A stretch of 64,000 bases of DNA from an uncultured Clostridia bacterium (GTDB lineage Bacteria; Bacillota; Clostridia; TANB77; CAG-508): the NCBI GenBank assembly GCA_944386165.1, contig CALXAA010000003.1, positions 1 to 64,000 of the forward strand. Direction: 5' to 3'. The position numbers and the translations under genes were made by a program. Below the pieces are notes generated by a model, which worked only from the letters and a program-made list of their open reading frames with translations, did not search any database and was not told the DNA's origin. This document shows, one piece after another, positions 187 through 34,507 of this stretch (positions are counted from its first letter, which is position 1; the number at the start of each line of letters is the position of its first letter).

Positions 187-2355
187 TTATATTACATATT
201 TTTTTATTAATTTGTCAATATTTTTGTGATAGTATTTTACTAAGAACTCTATTTCACTTGGTTTAATATCGCCTTTGCCCATTGCAACTTTTAAATATTG
301 AACATTATATAATTCAAATGCTTCTTCTGGTATTAATTCTTTGAAATCATCATAAGTAAATAATCCATATGTTTCTATATCTTTTGCCATTTTTTCTTCA
401 TTATAACTTACTGTTTCTCTATCTATTTCAAATATATTGCAGAATCCTTCTATTAATGATGATATTGATAAAATTCCATTTGTAAAACATGTTAAATGTT
501 TATCTGTTACTACTTCATAAATTCCGGTATATTTCTTTTCCAATTTTACATCTATTAATTGTATTGATTCTAGTTGATTATTTGGTGCTTGTTTTAAGAA
601 ATGATGTCCTATATATTGTTTATAGTTTGCTTTTGATAATGATATATATTTATTTAGTTCTACATCATAGAATCCGTGGTCTCTTACCACTTCTATATCT
701 GTTCCATCAGAGAAATATAAATGTATAATTGTATTTATTCTTCTATCTCCGTCATGATTTATTATATATGCTATATTTGCTTCATCATAGTCTCCAGTAT
801 ACATGTTCCATATTAGAAGCTTTTCGTCACCGTTTAAGTCTTCTACTTTTACTTTTTCTCCATTTGCCAGTGTAATTAGTGTTCCGTCGGCTACACAGCC
901 TCCTCCACCACCAGAGCTTGATGAACTTGAACTACTTGAAGAACTTGACGATGAGCTAGATGAACCAGATGATGGTTTCTTTGAATGTCCAGTTAACGTT
1001 GCAACTGTACCAATAACTAGTCCTGCAACACCTGCGACAGCACCACCAATAGGTCCAAATACAGTTGTTCCCATTGCAGCTAGACCTGGTATTGCAACTA
1101 CCCAACTCCAATCATCTTCATATTCTTGATCTTGATTTGATCCACTTGATCCTGAGCCACCACCGTGACTTCCTCCACCAGAGCTTGAGCCACCGCCTCC
1201 GCCACCGCTAGAACTTGTTGATTTCATAGTTACTTGGCATTGTGCAGTCTTACCATTTCCAGTTGTAACTGTTATTACTGCATAACCACTTGATCTTCTT
1301 GTTACATTTCCATTGCTATCTACAGATGCAATATTTGAATTTGAACTAGACCAAGTTAAATCAGTATTAACATTTGCTGTATCAGGTGTTATAGTTGCGT
1401 TTAATTTAAATGAACCTGTTGTTGTTACTGATTCTCTATCTAAAGTTACTCCTGTTGGTGATGTAACAACTTTTACTGTTGCAGTAGTTGCTAATCCTAA
1501 ATCATTAGTTAAAGTTAATTGTGTTTCTCCATTTTTAATTCCTGTAATTAATCCTGTTTGATCTACAGTTGCTATACTAGTATCAGCAATTGTATATGTA
1601 AAAGTAATTCCAGTGTCTGCATCTTCAGGATAGTATTTTACAGTCATTTGATATGTTTTTTCACCACTTAGGTCTATTGTAACATCAGTTGAACTTAATT
1701 CTAGAGTTTTAACTGCATTTCTTACAGTAATAACACATTCTGCTATCAAACCATCTTTTTCAACAGTTATTGTTACAACTCCACTTTTTCTTTGTGCTGT
1801 AACTAATCCATTGTCATCTACTGTTGCAATAGATAAGTCACTACTTCTCCATATCGCATCAGTTATAGGAGTATCTCCTTCATCACTTCTCATTACTGCA
1901 TTTAATTGTAGTGTTTCTTCCCAATTTAGAGTTGCACTTTCATGATCTAATACAATCATTGGAAGATTTACAATTCCATCTAGAATTTCTCCATCTTTTG
2001 TTATTGTATACCAATTTTGTGTTGGTACCATTTGTAAAATATATGATTTACTATTTTCTCTGTATTCAAAATTAGTATAATTTTCTGGGCGAACATGTTG
2101 ATCTAAATGATCTCTAAAAGGATCTTCTAGTAGTTCACCTTTATTATCAGATGTCATTGTTTCTTGTATAGCCAATCTTAATGCATTTTTTTCTTCTGTA
2201 ACATTAGCCTCTGTTTTGGCTTGTTGTCCCATAAAAATTCCATTAAATTGTCCGGTTAGAGCAGATATAGAAATACCAGCTATAATTAATATAACAATTA
2301 TAGTAACAACTAAAGCAATCAGTGTTACACCTTTTTCAAATTTCTTTTGTATCAT
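187..2355 (-). CDS. pilin-like secreted protein with Big2 repeats and a Hint domain
   Basis: A 722-residue surface protein. Residues 1-40 form a type IV prepilin-like leader: a short basic stretch ending in Gly, then a hydrophobic helix starting VTLIALVV. Three bacterial Ig-like (Big_2) repeats follow, roughly 130-215, 220-300 and 303-380, each with the xIATVDxxGxVT-type motif. Next come a Gly/Ser linker, a glycine-zipper-like hydrophobic segment (about 418-455), a run of 17 serines and five glycines. A Hint (hedgehog/intein) domain then begins at Cys487 in CVADGTLITL; it has a His at 560 and an FTNGILS block near 626. About 80 uncharacterised residues end the protein. The intein-type terminal HN is absent, so cleavage rather than splicing would be expected. 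A longer TTG frame begins at 2376, but AGGGGA sits correctly before the ATG at 2355. It follows divIVA by 26 bp, probably in one operon. Its target and function are unknown. Confidence 0.8.
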   Translation of the reverse strand: MIQKKFEKGVTLIALVVTIIVILIIAGISISALTGQFNGIFMGQQAKTEANVTEEKNALRLAIQETMTSDNKGELLEDPFRDHLDQHVRPENYTNFEYRENSKSYILQMVPTQNWYTITKDGEILDGIVNLPMIVLDHESATLNWEETLQLNAVMRSDEGDTPITDAIWRSSDLSIATVDDNGLVTAQRKSGVVTITVEKDGLIAECVITVRNAVKTLELSSTDVTIDLSGEKTYQMTVKYYPEDADTGITFTYTIADTSIATVDQTGLITGIKNGETQLTLTNDLGLATTATVKVVTSPTGVTLDRESVTTTGSFKLNATITPDTANVNTDLTWSSSNSNIASVDSNGNVTRRSSGYAVITVTTGNGKTAQCQVTMKSTSSSGGGGGGSSSGGGSHGGGSGSSGSNQDQEYEDDWSWVVAIPGLAAMGTTVFGPIGGAVAGVAGLVIGTVATLTGHSKKPSSGSSSSSSSSSSSSSSSSSGGGGGCVADGTLITLANGEKVKVEDLNGDEKLLIWNMYTGDYDEANIAYIINHDGDRRINTIIHLYFSDGTDIEVVRDHGFYDVELNKYISLSKANYKQYIGHHFLKQAPNNQLESIQLIDVKLEKKYTGIYEVVTDKHLTCFTNGILSISSLIEGFCNIFEIDRETVSYNEEKMAKDIETYGLFTYDDFKELIPEEAFELYNVQYLKVAMGKGDIKPSEIEFLVKYYHKNIDKLIKKYVI

Positions 2356-2381: not shown

Positions 2382-2870
2382 TTATTCATCATCTTTGTTT
2401 ATTTCTTTAATTAATTCTTCTTGTGAAATTAAAAGTGATTCCATTTTTGCTTTATAAACATCAAATTGTTTTTTTACTTCTTCCATTCTTCTTTCTTTAG
2501 CTATAATTTGTTGTTGTATTTCAGAAAGTTTTTGTTCTGCACTTCCTTTCGCCTGTTTAACAATTTCATCAGCCTTAGATTTTGCATCACTTATTATTTG
2601 ATCTGCTTGTTGCTTTGCAACACTTTTAACTTCTTCTGCTGTACTTTGTGCTATAACTAAAGTATTATTTAAAGTAGATTCTATATTTTTGTATTTTTCT
2701 AAGTCATTCATTAATTTTTCAATTTTGCTATTTGCTTCTGCTAATTCTTTGTAATTTTTTCCATAGTCTTCAACTAACTCATCTAGGAAGTCATCTACAT
2801 CTTCGACATTATATCCATTCATTACTTGCTTACTAAACTTTTTGTTTTCAATATCTAATGGTGTAATCAT
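2382..2870 (-). CDS. divIVA: DivIVA-family cell division protein
   Basis: A 162-residue coiled-coil protein of the DivIVA/GpsB family, which marks curved membrane at poles and septa and recruits division or wall-synthesis proteins. The N terminus MITPLDIENKKF followed by GYNVEDVDDFLDEL is the family's membrane-binding signature. The rest (about 35-155) is a charged coiled coil with several Ala-rich heptads. The frame is open from 2885, but GGAGG is inside that extension and lies eight bases before the ATG at 2870. It sits between sepF and the pilin-Hint gene, echoing the sepF-divIVA linkage of the Bacillus ylm cluster, although ylmG and ylmH are absent here. Confidence 0.9.
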   Translation of the reverse strand: MITPLDIENKKFSKQVMNGYNVEDVDDFLDELVEDYGKNYKELAEANSKIEKLMNDLEKYKNIESTLNNTLVIAQSTAEEVKSVAKQQADQIISDAKSKADEIVKQAKGSAEQKLSEIQQQIIAKERRMEEVKKQFDVYKAKMESLLISQEELIKEINKDDE

Positions 2871-2894
2871 ATTAGAATCCTCCATTCTGTATAA

Positions 2895-3377
2895 TTAATT
2901 TATGTTATTATTTTTAAGCCATGAAACTGACAATTTGTTTTTTATTTCTTCTCTTGCCATTTCATTTGTAATTTCATAGTTTGTTGGCGCAATTAAAAAT
3001 ATTGAATTAGAAATTTTTTGGATATGTCCATCTAGAGCATAAACTCCACCACTAATAAAATCAACTATTCTTCTAGCGACTTCTTTACTTACATATTCTA
3101 AATTTACAATTACAGATTTTTTCTCTTTTAATAAACTACAAATCTCTTCTGATTGTTCAAATGAAGTTGGTTGTGAAATAACCATTTTAACAGATTGTGA
3201 TTGTGGCATAGGTACAACTTTGCCTTTTCTTCCAAAGAATTTTCTGTCTTCTTCCTCTTCTTCATAGTTATCATATGTATCTACTTCATAGTCCTCTGCT
3301 TCTGTATCTTCTGCCTGTGATTGATTATTATTCATCCCAATTACTCCCCAGATTTTGTCCATTATAGCTCCTGCCAT
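2895..3377 (-). CDS. sepF: SepF-like cell division protein
   Basis: A 160-residue protein that in other Gram-positives tethers FtsZ to the membrane and shapes the septum. An N-terminal amphipathic helix (MAGAIMDKIWGVIG) is followed by a very acidic linker (about 22-43). The SepF core (about 60-150) contains SVIVNLEYVSKEVARRIVDFISG and GHIQKISNSIFLIAP. AGGAGG is seven bases before the ATG. It heads the operon with divIVA and the pilin-Hint gene. Its own promoter lies at 3460-3488 with an operator-like repeat further upstream. Confidence 0.92.
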   Translation of the reverse strand: MAGAIMDKIWGVIGMNNNQSQAEDTEAEDYEVDTYDNYEEEEEDRKFFGRKGKVVPMPQSQSVKMVISQPTSFEQSEEICSLLKEKKSVIVNLEYVSKEVARRIVDFISGGVYALDGHIQKISNSIFLIAPTNYEITNEMAREEIKNKLSVSWLKNNNIN

Positions 3378-6201: not shown

Positions 6202-8301
6202 TTATTTTCTTGCAAATTTTCTTTCTATGTCATATTTTGACATTTTTATTGCAATTGGAGTTCCATCTGTTGCTATAAATGGATTTGGTAATATTAAAAG
6301 TTTATCTATTAAATTTTCTATTTCATCTTGTTTGGTATCTATTTCCAATTTTTTGGCAACATTTTCTGCTATTATTTGTGCAAATTTTTCTTTAACCTCT
6401 GATTTTTGAGTTCTTGCAACAGAATTAATTTTTTCTAATATCTCTAAAAATAATTCTTTTGTTTCTAAATCTGCACATATTTCTGGAACTTCTGTTAATT
6501 TTACAGTGTTTTCTCCAAAATTATCAAAAATGAATCCTGCTTTTTTCAACATTTCTGCATTGTCTTTTACTATTTCCATGTCTTTATGTGAAAGTGTTAT
6601 TACATCTGGTATTAAAAGTAATTGTGAATTTCCATTTTCTCCGCTATTAATACTATTTATTATTGATTCATATAAAATTCTCTCTTCTGCAACTTTTTGA
6701 TCTAATAAATATACTTCATTTTCTATTTCTAATATTACATATTTTTCAAATGCCATTCCTATAAATTTGTAATTTATTTTGTTTTGTTCTGGAGTTTCTT
6801 CAAAAATTGAAACATTTTCAGTTGTTGCTATATCATCTAATGTTTCTTCTTTTTCTTGTTCTTCATTTTTTTCTTCTATTTCTTCTTTTTTTATTGGTTT
6901 TGTTCCAAATGTTTTTAAATACATTTCATCAAATTCTGGTTTGTTTTCTGTTACATTATATTGTGTACTTGGTTCTTCAGTTTTTGTATTTGTAGAATCA
7001 TTTTCGGTTATATTGTATTTTATTCCATTAGGTTCTTTTTCTTCATGTTTCGTAGGTTCTTCTTGATGTATTTTCTCTTCTGTTATAGGTTCTTCAATAA
7101 TTTCTTCATTTTCTGTTTGTATTTCTTTATCTAATTCCTCTGTTATTTTTTTATTTTCTTGTATCATTTTTTCTTTCATGTCTTGTAATTTTCTTAGTAT
7201 TTCTTGGCTTTTTAAAATTGTTTCATCTTCAATTAATTTTTTTTCATTATTTGATTCTTGAATTTTGGGTGTTTCAATTGTCTTTTCTTCAAAATTTTCT
7301 GTTTCATTGTTTTCTTTTTTCATTAAGTTTTCTTTTATTGCATGATATATCGCTTTAAAAATAACATTTTCGTCTTCAAACCTCACTTCTAATTTAGCTG
7401 GATGTACGTTTACATCTACTCTTCTAGAGTCCATATCTATATTTAAAATTACAAAAGCAAATTTTCCCATAGGAATTATATCTTTATATGCTCTTTCTAC
7501 TGCTGATGCTAGTGTTTTGTCTTTTACATATCTTTTATTTATAAAAAATATTTGGTTTGCTCTATTTGAACGAGCTATTTCTGGTTTTCCTATTACTCCA
7601 TAAATATGTATATCATCTGCCTTATAATCTACATCTATTACCGAATTTGCGATTTCTTTACCATAAATACTATAAATAGTTGTTTTTAAATCTCCACTTC
7701 CATTTGTTTGTATTACAGTTCTACCAGAATTTATTAATTTAATTGCAATTTCTGGGTGAGATAGTGCAATTCTTGAAACAGCATCTTCAATATATCCTGC
7801 TTCTGTAAAATCTTTTCTTAAAAATTTATATCTAACTGGTGTATTGTAAAATAAGTCTGTTACTATTATTGTAGTTCCTATAGGAGCTCCTGTTTCAGAT
7901 TTTTCTAGAATATTGCCTCCTTCTACAATTACTCTATATCCATTTTGCTGGCTAGATGTTCTTGATATCATTTCTACTTTTGAAATTGCTGCAATACTAG
8001 CTAGTGCTTCTCCTCTGAATCCCATGGATTTTATTGTATTTAAATCTTCAGCAGATCTTATTTTACTTGTTGCATGTCTTTCAAATGCCATGTCTAAATC
8101 ATCATTTGCAATTCCTTTTCCATTATCTGTTATTCTTATGTATGATATTCCACCATTTTTTATTTCTATTATTATATTAGTTGCTCCGGCATCAATAGAA
8201 TTTTCTAACATTTCTTTTATTGCTGATGCTGGTCTTTCTATTACTTCTCCTGCAGCTATTTTATTTATTGTTAAATCATCTAATAATACTATACTTCCCA
8301 T
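6202..8301 (-). CDS. mutL: DNA mismatch repair protein MutL, nuclease motifs degenerate
   Basis: A 699-residue MutL. The GHKL ATPase domain (about 1-330) is intact: EMLENSIDAGAT, TDNGKGI, ATSKI and GFRGEALASI. A long Glu/Lys-rich linker spans about 340-500, and the C-terminal dimerisation domain follows. In nuclease-type MutL the C-terminal site reads DQHA-X2-E-X4-E, with CPHGRP near the end. Here the first reads DQKVAEERILYE (from D534) and the second IATDGTP (about 676-682), so the metal-binding His and Cys are replaced. ATP-driven signalling may remain while the strand-nicking step is probably lost. No mutS is present in the window. AAGGA precedes the ATG. Confidence 0.93.
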   Translation of the reverse strand: MGSIVLLDDLTINKIAAGEVIERPASAIKEMLENSIDAGATNIIIEIKNGGISYIRITDNGKGIANDDLDMAFERHATSKIRSAEDLNTIKSMGFRGEALASIAAISKVEMISRTSSQQNGYRVIVEGGNILEKSETGAPIGTTIIVTDLFYNTPVRYKFLRKDFTEAGYIEDAVSRIALSHPEIAIKLINSGRTVIQTNGSGDLKTTIYSIYGKEIANSVIDVDYKADDIHIYGVIGKPEIARSNRANQIFFINKRYVKDKTLASAVERAYKDIIPMGKFAFVILNIDMDSRRVDVNVHPAKLEVRFEDENVIFKAIYHAIKENLMKKENNETENFEEKTIETPKIQESNNEKKLIEDETILKSQEILRKLQDMKEKMIQENKKITEELDKEIQTENEEIIEEPITEEKIHQEEPTKHEEKEPNGIKYNITENDSTNTKTEEPSTQYNVTENKPEFDEMYLKTFGTKPIKKEEIEEKNEEQEKEETLDDIATTENVSIFEETPEQNKINYKFIGMAFEKYVILEIENEVYLLDQKVAEERILYESIINSINSGENGNSQLLLIPDVITLSHKDMEIVKDNAEMLKKAGFIFDNFGENTVKLTEVPEICADLETKELFLEILEKINSVARTQKSEVKEKFAQIIAENVAKKLEIDTKQDEIENLIDKLLILPNPFIATDGTPIAIKMSKYDIERKFARK

Positions 8302-8366
8302 ATTATTCCTTGCCTTATGTATTTTATTTAGGTTTTTATGTTCCCTATAAACATTTTTACATGTTT

Positions 8367-8395
8367 ATTTTATAATAAAAAGAAAAAAATAGCAA
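8367..8395 (-). promoter_or_regulatory. possible mutL promoter
   Basis: On the minus strand TTGCTA (8390-8395) and TAAAAT (8367-8372) are 17 bp apart. The -35 overlaps the terminator of the upstream glycosyltransferase gene, so this is a moderate call. Confidence 0.35.
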
Positions 8396-8416
8396 GAAAA
8401 TCCTTACTATTTTTTG
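8384..8416 (-). terminator. terminator after the glycosyltransferase gene
   Basis: On the minus strand the arms AATAGTAAG and CTTGCTATT pair (one G-U) around a short loop and are followed by seven Ts. The hairpin lies 23-55 bases past the stop at 8439. Confidence 0.75.
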
Positions 8417-8438
8417 ATTTGTTTTTATATAATTATTC

Positions 8439-9731
8439 TTATGCAAATATTTGACGTTTTTTAAATGGTAAAATGTTTGTAATTTCTTTTTCTTGTGAAT
8501 TTGCCTTTTTTTCGGCTCTTGCTCTTTCTTGTTCAAGTTGTCTTTTTTGTCTTTCTGCCATTTTTTCACATATTGCTTTTTGATAAATAAAGTGTGTATC
8601 TTGAGCAATTTTTTGCCAGTTGTAATTTTCTTTCACTTTTACTTTGGCTTTTTTTACAATATTTGCACATAATTCTGGATTAAATAATAATTCAAGTATA
8701 CAGTCTGCAATTGAATTTGGATTTCCACAATAGCTTTTCATTCCTGTAACTCTATGTTCTACTATTTCTCCTAATCCTCCTGCATCAGAAACTACTATTG
8801 GTCTTTCTGCTAGCATTCCTTCTAATGCTACAATTCCGAATGGTTCATATAAACTTGGAAATACTGATATGTCTGCTGCTTTGTACATTCTTTCTACATC
8901 TTTTCCATTCATATATCCTGCAAAATATACTTTGTTTGCTATTCCTAAATAGTCTGCTTGTGATCTTAGTTCATCTAACATTCCACCTTTTCCTGCAATT
9001 ACAAGTTTTGCATCATGGTATGCTGATAATACTTTTGGCATTGCTGCTATTAGGTTTTGTATTCCTTTTTCATATACAAGTCTTCCCATGAATAGAATTA
9101 TTTTTTCATTGTCCATTGCATATCTTCTTCTAAAGGTATAGTCTCTGTCCATTCCAGAAAATTTATTTAGGTTTACTCCATTTGGAACAACATTTATTTT
9201 TTCAAATGGTAATCCAAATAGTCTTTGTATTTCGTTTTTCATGTAATTGCTGTTTACAATTACTTCGTTTGATTCATATGTAAGCATCCATTCTGTATCA
9301 TTTATGTATTTTTGTTGAGCTTCTCTAATTCCTCCATTTCTTCCTGCTTCAGTGGCATGTATTGTTGCTACTATTGGGATATCGTAAGAGTTTTTTAATG
9401 TTTTTGCTGCATTTGCAACTAACCAGTCATGTGCATGTATTACATCAAACTTTCCTTGTTCTAATATTATTTGGCTTGCCTTTTCTACCATGTTGAAATT
9501 TAATTGCAATATCCAGTCTATAAAGTTGTTTGGTTGTATCATGTAATTGTCTACTCTATAAACTTTTACTCCTTTGTCGTCTTCAAAATATGGAACTTCT
9601 CCATCTCTGTATGTTATTACAGTTACTTCATGACCATCTTTTATTAGTCTGTGTGATAGGTCATATACTACTCTTGCTATTCCACCTACTACTCTTGGTG
9701 GATATTCCCATGTTAGCATCAATATTTTCAT
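8439..9731 (-). CDS. GT4 glycosyltransferase (glycogen-synthase-like)
   Basis: A 430-residue GT-B fold glycosyltransferase. The N-terminal acceptor domain opens with MKILMLTWEYPPRVVGGIARVV, which has the Gly-rich loop of family GT4. HAHDWLVANAA follows near 100. The donor domain has GRLVYEKGIQNLI (about 215) and the EPFGIVALEGM nucleotide-sugar motif (about 300). The form resembles bacterial alpha-glucan synthases and related GT4 enzymes; the substrate cannot be fixed from sequence. A basic, Gln/Glu-rich tail of about 40 residues follows the catalytic core. It has its own promoter and terminator, so it is likely monocistronic. Confidence 0.85.
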   Translation of the reverse strand: MKILMLTWEYPPRVVGGIARVVYDLSHRLIKDGHEVTVITYRDGEVPYFEDDKGVKVYRVDNYMIQPNNFIDWILQLNFNMVEKASQIILEQGKFDVIHAHDWLVANAAKTLKNSYDIPIVATIHATEAGRNGGIREAQQKYINDTEWMLTYESNEVIVNSNYMKNEIQRLFGLPFEKINVVPNGVNLNKFSGMDRDYTFRRRYAMDNEKIILFMGRLVYEKGIQNLIAAMPKVLSAYHDAKLVIAGKGGMLDELRSQADYLGIANKVYFAGYMNGKDVERMYKAADISVFPSLYEPFGIVALEGMLAERPIVVSDAGGLGEIVEHRVTGMKSYCGNPNSIADCILELLFNPELCANIVKKAKVKVKENYNWQKIAQDTHFIYQKAICEKMAERQKRQLEQERARAEKKANSQEKEITNILPFKKRQIFA

Positions 9732-22547: not shown

Positions 22548-23321
22548 TCATTTAAAAATTTTCTTGATTTTCTTTCTATTCACTCCAATCACCCTTGATA
22601 TTTGAGTTATATTAGTTCCATTAATTTCTTTTAACAATATTAAATTATTTTCTATATCTTCATTGGTTTTATTTTTAAATAAATGCTTTATTTCTTGTTT
22701 ATTTTCTAATTTGTACAAATTACATATTATATCAGCTAGTTTTTCATCTGATAATTTATCTATCATTTCATATTCTGCAAAATCATTTATATTTTCATAT
22801 TTATTACCTATTGTATATTTTATAAATTCATCAATATTATTATCAAAATAATGTAGTAGTACTTTTTTATTTATTATTTTTTCTTTCCCTATATATTCTT
22901 TGTAACTACTCCATTTATAATCTTCTGTTTTGGATATTTTAGCCTTTTCTGGATTTCTGTGAACATATCTGCAAACATCCATAAAATACCTTTGATTTTC
23001 TACATTTTTACTCTTGAATCTGTTTTGAAGAAATGGTCCAACTCTTTCGTATTTTTGGTTAAAATAATGTGCATACCTTATTGATAGACTTTGCATAGAT
23101 TTAGATAAAAAATCATTTTCGACTCTAATTACCATATGAATATGATTGCTCATTAAACAATATGCATATACTTGAAAATAAAATTGTTTTTTAGTTAATT
23201 GAATTTGATTTAGAAAAAAATTTCTGTCATCATTGTTATAAAAAATATCTTGACTATCTATTCCTTTCAAAATAATATGATAGATTTTTGAATTACTATA
23301 TGTTCTTAATGGTCTTGGCAA
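22548..23321 (-). CDS. REP-associated tyrosine transposase (RAYT)
   Basis: A 257-residue Y1 HUH endonuclease of the IS200-like RAYT class, which nicks single-stranded REP DNA and spreads REP sequences. The HUH pair is in MSNHIHMVI (His60, His62). The probable catalytic Tyr119 is in CRYVHRNPEKA, and GPFLQNRFKS is also typical. The C-terminal 60 residues end in a helix-turn-helix-like segment (ISRVIGVNRKKI). The start is a TTG at 23321 giving MPRPLR, set five bases after AGAGG. The gene looks intact, and its flanking repeats match other copies in the window, so the family may still be active. Confidence 0.9.
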   Translation of the reverse strand: MPRPLRTYSNSKIYHIILKGIDSQDIFYNNDDRNFFLNQIQLTKKQFYFQVYAYCLMSNHIHMVIRVENDFLSKSMQSLSIRYAHYFNQKYERVGPFLQNRFKSKNVENQRYFMDVCRYVHRNPEKAKISKTEDYKWSSYKEYIGKEKIINKKVLLHYFDNNIDEFIKYTIGNKYENINDFAEYEMIDKLSDEKLADIICNLYKLENKQEIKHLFKNKTNEDIENNLILLKEINGTNITQISRVIGVNRKKIKKIFK

Positions 23322-33102: not shown

Positions 33103-34344
33103 TTAACTAGCAATTTCTATTTTATATCCTTTTTCTTTCAATTCTTTTATCATTCTTTGTTCTTTTTTCTTTTGTAGTATTTTTTCATAGTCTTCTTTTT
33201 CTCGTTCTTCATATTTTATACCACTTACTAATATATGATAGCATAATCTTAATATTAAATTTCCAACCGCATGTATTGCTTTTTGTGGTCCCATCCTTTT
33301 TACAAATCTCCAATATGTTGCTGATATTCTATTTTTCTTACTTCTTACACATGACCAAGCACATTCATTTAGTGTTGCTCTTAAGCTTCTATTTCCTTTT
33401 GTCGTTTTCCCCTTTTTTTTTATTCCTGCACTCTCATTATTTCCTGGACTCATTCCTGCCCATGATGTCAAATGTTTTACTGTTGGGAATTGGTTCATAT
33501 CTGTTCCTATTTCTGCTATTATTGCTTTTGCACTTTCTTCATTTATTCCTGGGATACTATCTAGCAATTCTATTTCTTTCTTATATTTCTCACATGCTTC
33601 ATTTATCATTTTATCTATTTCATCTTGTTCTTTTTCTAAATATTTTAAATGCTCATATATTAGTTTTATCATCTTTCTATGATGTGCCCTTGTTGTTCCT
33701 TTTAGTCCTTCTTTTATTTGTGGTATTTTTCCCCTTAAACTGGCTTTTCCTCTTCCTGCTGTTACTTCTATTAAATCTTCATTGCTTATTTCTTTTCCTT
33801 CTATTATTTTTTCTAATAGTTTTCTTCCTGTATCTCCAAATATATCACTTATATCTGTTGTCATTTTTATGTTCGCATCTTGCAATATTTTATGAATTCT
33901 ATTCTTTTCTGCGCTTGCTTCTTGTATTATTTTTCTTCTATATCTTATTAAATCTCTTAGTTCTCGTATTTCTACATTTGGTACAAAGCTACTCTTTATT
34001 AATCCACATCTTAGCAACTCTGCTATCCATTGTGCATCTTTTACATCCGTTTTTCTTCCTGGTATATTTTTTATTTCTTTTGCATTTGCTAGTTTTATTT
34101 CATATTTTTCATCTTCTATGATATTCCATACACATTTCCAGAATATCCCTGTACTCTCCATTGCTATCTGTTCTATTTCTTTTTCTAGCAACCATTCATG
34201 TAATTCTTCTAAATCTTTTGTATATGTTTCAAATGTTCTAATTTCACTTTCTGGTTTTTTATCTAGCTCTCCTGTTAGAACACATGCTACAATTGTTTCT
34301 TGATGTACATCTAATCCTGCACACCTTTTTACCATTGCCTCCAT
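33103..34344 (-). CDS. IS110-family DEDD transposase (recombinase)
   Basis: A 413-residue IS110 recombinase. The DEDD RuvC-like domain is N-terminal: CAGLDVHQETIVACV, IAMESTGIFW and GRKTDVKDAQWIAELL. A coiled-coil linker follows. The C-terminal transposase_20 domain has SIPGINEESAKAIIAEIG, SWAGMSPGNNESAGI and the nucleophilic-Ser region NRSLRATLNECAW. These elements lack terminal inverted repeats and use an RNA guide encoded beside the gene. An upstream ATG at 34377 is possible, but the GDVH-type start favours 34344. The gene appears intact. Confidence 0.9.
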   Translation of the reverse strand: MEAMVKRCAGLDVHQETIVACVLTGELDKKPESEIRTFETYTKDLEELHEWLLEKEIEQIAMESTGIFWKCVWNIIEDEKYEIKLANAKEIKNIPGRKTDVKDAQWIAELLRCGLIKSSFVPNVEIRELRDLIRYRRKIIQEASAEKNRIHKILQDANIKMTTDISDIFGDTGRKLLEKIIEGKEISNEDLIEVTAGRGKASLRGKIPQIKEGLKGTTRAHHRKMIKLIYEHLKYLEKEQDEIDKMINEACEKYKKEIELLDSIPGINEESAKAIIAEIGTDMNQFPTVKHLTSWAGMSPGNNESAGIKKKGKTTKGNRSLRATLNECAWSCVRSKKNRISATYWRFVKRMGPQKAIHAVGNLILRLCYHILVSGIKYEEREKEDYEKILQKKKEQRMIKELKEKGYKIEIAS

Positions 34345-34507
34345 ATACTCACCACTTTCTATCAAGTATCTAAACATTTCTAATCATTTTAAAATTTTCT
34401 TTCACGTGCTCTTTGGCTACAATTTTTTGCTCTTAGTAAATGCTTAGTTTCAGTTTCCTAACGGATTGTATCATACCACTAAATCGTCGAATTACTTTAT
34501 ACTTGAC
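34345..34507 (-). ncRNA. candidate bridge (guide) RNA of the IS110 element
   Basis: The promoter at 34514-34542 would start a transcript near 34507, leaving a leader of about 160 nt with no gene ahead of the transposase start. IS110-group elements carry their bridge RNA in exactly this position. I could not define its loops by eye, so this rests on position and promoter. Confidence 0.4.

Follow-up and report, generated by a model that had tools for sequence, protein, structure and literature searches.

The window, a stretch of 64,000 nt that forms the start of contig C3 in the assembly G000, carries on its minus strand a single open reading frame (187-2355; ATG at 2355, stop at 187) for a protein of 722 aa, and the contig ends 186 bp past the stop codon. 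The composition claimed for this protein in the earlier note was borne out by the reading frame, by Pfam and by AF2 models searched with Foldseek; a prepilin-like N terminus, three Big_2 repeats, a Gly-rich segment, a tract of 17 serines and a Hint domain are joined in one chain. The features of the locus, some of which were recognized by comparison with the genomes G080 and G159 of sister species, are as follows.

1-77: 77 nt shared exactly with the end of the rsmD-bearing contig C7; assembly break (sequence match)
141-180: stem-loop and T-run behind the gene, terminator-like (aaaaagag...ctcttttt; by eye)
187-2355, minus strand: prepilin-like / Big_2 / Hint protein, 722 aa, fused ('ON') form (ORF; alignment with the flipped G080 gene)
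190-459, minus strand: predicted helical C-terminal extension behind the Hint domain, about 90 aa, conserved (AF2, family alignment)
460-897, minus strand: Hint domain, residues 487 to about 632, with nucleophile Cys487 and block-B His560 (AF2 and Foldseek, BIL2 profile match, conservation)
913-963, minus strand: 17-Ser tract, residues 465-481 (codon reading)
988-1122, minus strand: Gly-rich hydrophobic (glycine-zipper-like) segment, residues 412-456 (translation, by eye)
1132-1221, minus strand: Gly/Ser linker, which houses the recombination site in G080 and G159 (sequence comparison)
1138-1155, minus strand: 18-nt recombination-site remnant (TCAGGATCAAGTGGATCA), 100% identical over 18 nt to the left half of the arm in G080
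1222-1962, minus strand: three Big_2 Ig-like repeats, about residues 132-378 (Pfam PF02368, E 2.9e-26, three stretches)
2248-2355, minus strand: prepilin-like leader and transmembrane helix, residues 1-36 (sub-threshold N_methyl; G/VTLIALV motif by eye, the slash marking the cleavage site)
2382-2885, minus strand: divIVA, 26 nt upstream of the Hint gene (Pfam PF05103, E 9e-33)
2895-3377, minus strand: sepF (Pfam PF04472, E 6e-27)

The context of the putative leader cleavage site is KG/VTLIALVVTIIVILIIAG. Type IV prepilin leaders usually carry Glu at position +5; the window protein has Ala there, and so does not show Gly-1 and Glu5 together, and its match to N_methyl is sub-threshold (13.7 bits against a Pfam cut-off of 21.2, E 0.049). 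The leader is therefore correctly called prepilin-like, while 'prepilin' is unproven. Two Peptidase_A24 prepilin peptidases, both over cut-off, are encoded in the genome, so that processing of the leader is possible. The same genome encodes paralogous prepilin/Big_2 proteins that are Hint-less and have quite different C-termini (G000:C1:78108-79271, locus L002, and G000:C35, locus L003). In the serine tract, the count of 17 given in the earlier note was right, whereas its six codon types were not; five types are used and TCC is absent. Relatives have tracts of 17, 21 and 24 residues in mixed codons, which makes microsatellite slippage an unlikely origin, as had been argued.

From Cys487 onwards the protein is a Hint fold, as judged from structure modelling and profile comparison. 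No Hint family of Pfam attained its cut-off on the window protein, and the match to NCBIfam intein_Nterm was weak (16.9 bits against a cut-off of 24.5), with its start exactly at 487. A profile of 8 relatives matched the solved BIL2 domain (E 4e-9), and a first AF2 model made with the same number of relatives (pLDDT 79) had its matches among inteins, Hedgehog and BILs. With 18 relatives the model reached a pLDDT of 89.7 and a pTM of 0.87; Foldseek then ranked the Hedgehog autoprocessing domain 1at0 first (E 6e-8, TM 0.77 by target length), with inteins and the C. thermocellum BIL next. The Hint domain that the earlier note had read in the sequence is supported by the family profile and by structure prediction.

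Conservation was read from 18 relatives, the family having at least 18 members in the order. Cys at Hint position 1 (Cys487 in the window) and the block-B His are both present in 18/18, although identity within the family drops to about 20-25%; the invariant columns are Cys1, Thr6, Gly35, Phe62, His74, Gly97 and Asn154. Most members, those of the window's subgroup among them, have a hydrophobic residue (V/I/F) where the TxxH motif has Thr, which weakens the prediction of full Hint activity; in Hedgehog, T326A strongly lowers activity (PMC9163320). None of the 18 relatives has the C-terminal His-Asn, the window reading FTNGIL-SIS there; several remoter Hint proteins of the same order retain it. 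The pairing of this motif with a C-extein nucleophile, by which an intein is recognized, was not found in the window Hint. Because the terminal His-Asn is missing, N-side cleavage alone is expected, with neither splicing nor C-side cleavage. The motif pattern, intein-like with the C-terminal motif missing, agrees with that of B-type BILs, which still cleave on the N-side (PMC7765530). The helical extension matched no known domain, Foldseek alignments spanning the Hint part alone, and no homology to the sterol-recognition region (SRR) was found in it by Foldseek.

By analogy with Hedgehog (PMC9163320) and B-type BILs (PMC7765530), Cys487 would most likely attack the carbonyl of Gly486 after export, and this N-S acyl shift would yield a thioester; chemistry at the Gly486-Cys487 bond, as the earlier note expected, is supported as a prediction from sequence and model. 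Water or another nucleophile would then resolve the thioester, so that the pilin/Big_2 part may be freed from the Hint domain or attached elsewhere. For both the cleavage and the choice of nucleophile or adduct, these analogues are our guide.

When 388 genomes of the order were searched with the Hint profile, 23 contained a match and 18 matches were strong. The carriers are mostly prepilin-like (the window, G080, G159, G105, G266 on contig C9, G222, G414, G307 and G351, and, with a frameshift before the Hint domain, G089, G291 and G356), and SipW/TasA-like proteins are found as well (G035, G112, G058, G319 and G266 on contig C20), most of them with fn3; the carrier in G056 is another secreted protein. 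As prepilin and Hint meet in several genomes of the order, the combination is recurrent rather than a single oddity. In another family of the order, G091 (L122) has joined prepilin, Big_2 and Hint independently; it shares the three-part combination with the window protein and differs in its canonical His-Asn Hint, which passes the Pfam cut-offs for PT-HINT and Intein_splicing.

Several of these loci had features of their own. The SipW/TasA-like carriers at L027, L029, L031, L130 and L134, mostly with fn3, lie amid further small TasA-like genes, and such clusters possibly serve matrix assembly. Carrier and Hint are separated by a break in the reading frame at L028 (G089) near 2558, at L130 (G266) near 7290 and at L131 and L132 (G291 and G356); no obvious homopolymer was seen at these breaks, which reflect either phase variation or assembly error in the four genomes. 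The prepilin-Hint interval of L131 (2250-2800) could not be aligned with that of L132 (6980-7700). Between these two genomes, DNA identity is 78% in the prepilin part and 93% in the Hint part, with the homology boundary 14 nt ahead of the codon for the Hint Cys, which suggests on sequence grounds that the interval is hypervariable or swapped. A SecA gene adjoins the prepilin-Hint gene at L138 (G351; 7027-9297, Pfam-confirmed) and at L135 (G222; SecA-like by sequence), possibly as a dedicated exporter. Inverted repeats of at least 20 nt were absent from 15 related Hint loci, and these were rejected as invertible.

In the window, sepF and divIVA lie just upstream of the Hint gene, as the earlier note described, and the 26-nt gap is that of a gene probably co-transcribed with divIVA. 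The deployment at the septum that the note drew from this position was rejected, because the gene is present in only 4/211 genomes of the genus and because a neighbourhood survey found related prepilin-Hint genes with other neighbours. Elsewhere in the window, an IS110-like transposase (33103-34377) and a REP-type (Y1) transposase (22548-23321) were noticed by eye in the translations.

No close Hint relative was found in the genome collection by a peptide-pattern search; a search with the prepilin profile instead led to G052, G159 and G080. In G080 the gene occupies the same syntenic place as in the window (mutL ... miaA - HlyD-like - sepF - divIVA - prepilin - ... - rsmD - ftsK). Its prepilin/Big_2 reading frame comprises 465 aa and ends in a short glycine-zipper tail; a segment of the glycine-zipper kind is found in both alternative tails of G080. 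Behind this frame, on the opposite strand, lies a Hint cassette that has no start codon and whose open frame starts exactly at an inverted repeat. The repeat is a perfect 28 bp inside a 41-nt arm of 88% identity, one arm lying in the Gly/Ser linker and the other at the outer edge of the cassette; by comparison, 60 dinucleotide shuffles gave longest inverted repeats of 11.8 nt on average and 15 nt at most, and five control stretches gave 11-13 nt. In-silico inversion of the segment produced a single ORF of 740 aa, whose product aligned with the window protein end to end (70% identity over 737 aligned columns). G080 thus has inverted repeats within the coding sequence and in-frame alternative 3' cassettes, the hallmarks of a C-terminal inversion system.

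Past the far arm, at a distance of about 225 bp, G080 carries a lone 345-aa tyrosine recombinase (Phage_integrase, E 4e-32), and then rsmD. In G080 and G159 this adjacent recombinase has its catalytic residues intact, with the motifs RIGE, HMLRH, GH and IYGD. Its kin are the integrases of mobile elements, from which it differs in missing 85-90 N-terminal residues while keeping the core-binding and catalytic parts; no other element genes were found beside it. For the inverted Hint domain of G080, the dN/dS ratio (Nei-Gojobori) was 0.14 against the fused one of G159 and 0.18 against that of the window; for the recombinase, present in two species, it was 0.17. By these ratios the silent, inverted Hint of G080 and the recombinase appear to be under purifying selection; the low Hint values make the G080 cassette unlike a silent relic, as would also be the case after a very recent inversion.

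G159 is 93% identical to G080 in DNA (95% in the DNA and 97% in the protein of the prepilin part), has the fused Hint form with an identical 28-bp site, and its contig C13 begins inside the orthologous recombinase, followed by rsmD. The short tail is absent from the 436 bp behind its Hint stop, where IS-like sequence lies instead, so that G159 and G080 are not simply two orientations of one arrangement. This sequence (L129 3400-3812 and L090 1-90), directly behind the Hint gene, was judged by eye to be an ISL3-type transposase fragment, and about 78 bp of it recur in G052, at the contig end nearer to rsmD. The G052 assembly shows the short tail and lacks a Hint domain. By the prepilin part, G000 pairs with G052 (82%) and G080 with G159 (97%). 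The Hint tail occurs in G000, G159 and G080, and G052 and G080 have the short one; judging from this distribution, the common ancestor probably had both.

At the window's own locus the full 28-nt site was not found within 8 mismatches, leaving the 18-nt half-site, and a search of the genome bin found neither an ortholog of the recombinase nor a partner repeat; the bin's best recombinase matches are element-type at 38%. With recombinase and partner site missing from the locus, its Hint form is probably locked in the fused state, and an unbinned variant of the locus that bears the recombinase may exist. The assembled layout of G000 runs from Hint through about 110 bp and the shared 77 bp to rsmD. 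Contig breaks were dropped as proof of inversion; those in G052 and G159 fall at IS-like sequence, and the break between C3 and C7 of G000, with its 77-nt overlap, shows assembler ambiguity only, since no third contig of the bin has that sequence. A recombinase search across relatives was likewise dropped as uninformative, because generic element integrases were too numerous.

We consider it rather probable that the gene is, or derives from, a two-state switch of the shufflon kind, in which a recombinase exchanges the tail cassette and the Hint domain acts on its N-side. The product would be a membrane-anchored, pilin-like surface protein of Ig repeats with an exchangeable tail. In one state the Gly/Ser linker would lead into the short glycine-zipper tail, and in the other into glycine zipper, Ser tract, Hint domain and helical extension. 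In the G080/G159 lineage the adjacent tyrosine recombinase probably flips the stretch of tail between the two 28-bp linker sites, and cells would thereby alternate between plain and Hint-bearing protein. Opposite orientations of the cassette were seen between sister species and never in a single genome; present-day inversion is what we infer. A fuller version of the switch is possible but distinctly more tentative, namely that a recombinase-controlled, phase-variable switch adds and removes a Hedgehog-like self-cleaving domain, that Hint and extension attach the pilin/Big_2 part to a nucleophile of the envelope, and that the DNA flip sets whether the adhesin is held in the membrane or is covalently attached or released.

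The main competitor, which we think somewhat unlikely, is a static fused Hint protein, with the inversion in G080 a one-off and the recombinase a remnant of a mobile element. The inverted layout in only 1/4 species, the kinship of the truncated recombinase with element integrases, the IS sequences near the locus in G052 and G159 and a window locus without recombinase or second repeat would all fit it. It leaves unexplained a perfect repeat that is in frame at each of the two joints and marks the exact start of the open frame, an inverted Hint kept intact in G080, the conservation of both tails across species, and a recombinase with low dN/dS in two species and no element genes alongside. About equally doubtful is a catalytically weak or dead Hint domain whose role is that of a folded module for binding or capping; the replaced Thr of TxxH and the missing His-Asn speak for it, whereas Cys1 and His have persisted in every relative at low overall identity and B-type BILs cleave without the C-terminal motif (PMC7765530).

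Pretoxin Hint domains release effectors in polymorphic toxins, and the conserved helical extension of about 90 aa could in the same style be an effector freed by the Hint domain. We regard this as improbable, for the extension is conserved in the family and not polymorphic, matches no known domain, and the residues for C-side cleavage are missing. Insertion of a mobile intein into a host protein would account for the Hint fold and the weak intein_Nterm match; it is already excluded by sequence as far as we can judge, since the protein lacks the terminal His-Asn, the C-extein nucleophile and a homing endonuclease, and the Hint domain sits at the C-terminus of unrelated carriers. Several points go beyond the earlier note: the Hint tail is exchangeable, and inverted beside a recombinase in a sister species, the combination recurs in the order, and His-Asn is absent.

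Each component has known counterparts. Like B-type BILs as they are portrayed in PMC7765530 (Amitai 2003; Dassa 2004), the window family has the Hint fold, an N-terminal Cys, no C-terminal His-Asn and variable, non-conserved bacterial host proteins; unlike them in that account, it sits on prepilin-like and SipW/TasA-like carriers, has a helical extension and in one lineage forms an invertible cassette, the resemblance to type B being one of motif pattern. The Hog domain of Hedgehog (1AT0), the best structural match, likewise has Hint followed by a C-terminal helical region and cleaves on the N-side only, as is predicted for the window Hint, whereas the window Hint is bacterial, about 12% identical, has the TxxH Thr replaced and yielded no sterol-recognition homology. 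In the R64 shufflon (PilV/Rci), a tyrosine recombinase beside a type IV pilin-like gene picks alternative C-terminal segments by DNA inversion (PMC11852207), as is proposed here; the G080/G159 locus differs in having two states instead of several, in its chromosomal setting in Clostridia, in a tail with Hint and in a recombinase of another lineage, that of element integrases minus their N-terminal region. Intragenic invertons, in the account of Chanin et al. 2024 given in PMC11868660, recode a protein by inversion within the coding sequence, whereas a locus of the G080 type would switch a whole second 3' cassette with the recombinase alongside. The earlier note knew of no described system with this combination, and among the papers searched here none has both 'Hint domain' and 'prepilin'.

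Bacterial Hint and BIL domains have been known since about 2003, and to our knowledge their biological purpose is little understood. Throughout the order of uncultured Clostridia studied here, such a domain is tied to a defined class of carriers, namely surface proteins of the pilin-like and SipW/TasA-like kinds. One lineage appears to turn its Hint domain on and off genetically, which permits the surface fate of the adhesin to be compared with and without Hint. Systems of C-terminal inversion would thereby be extended from the pilins of conjugative plasmids to chromosomal pilin-like proteins of Clostridia.
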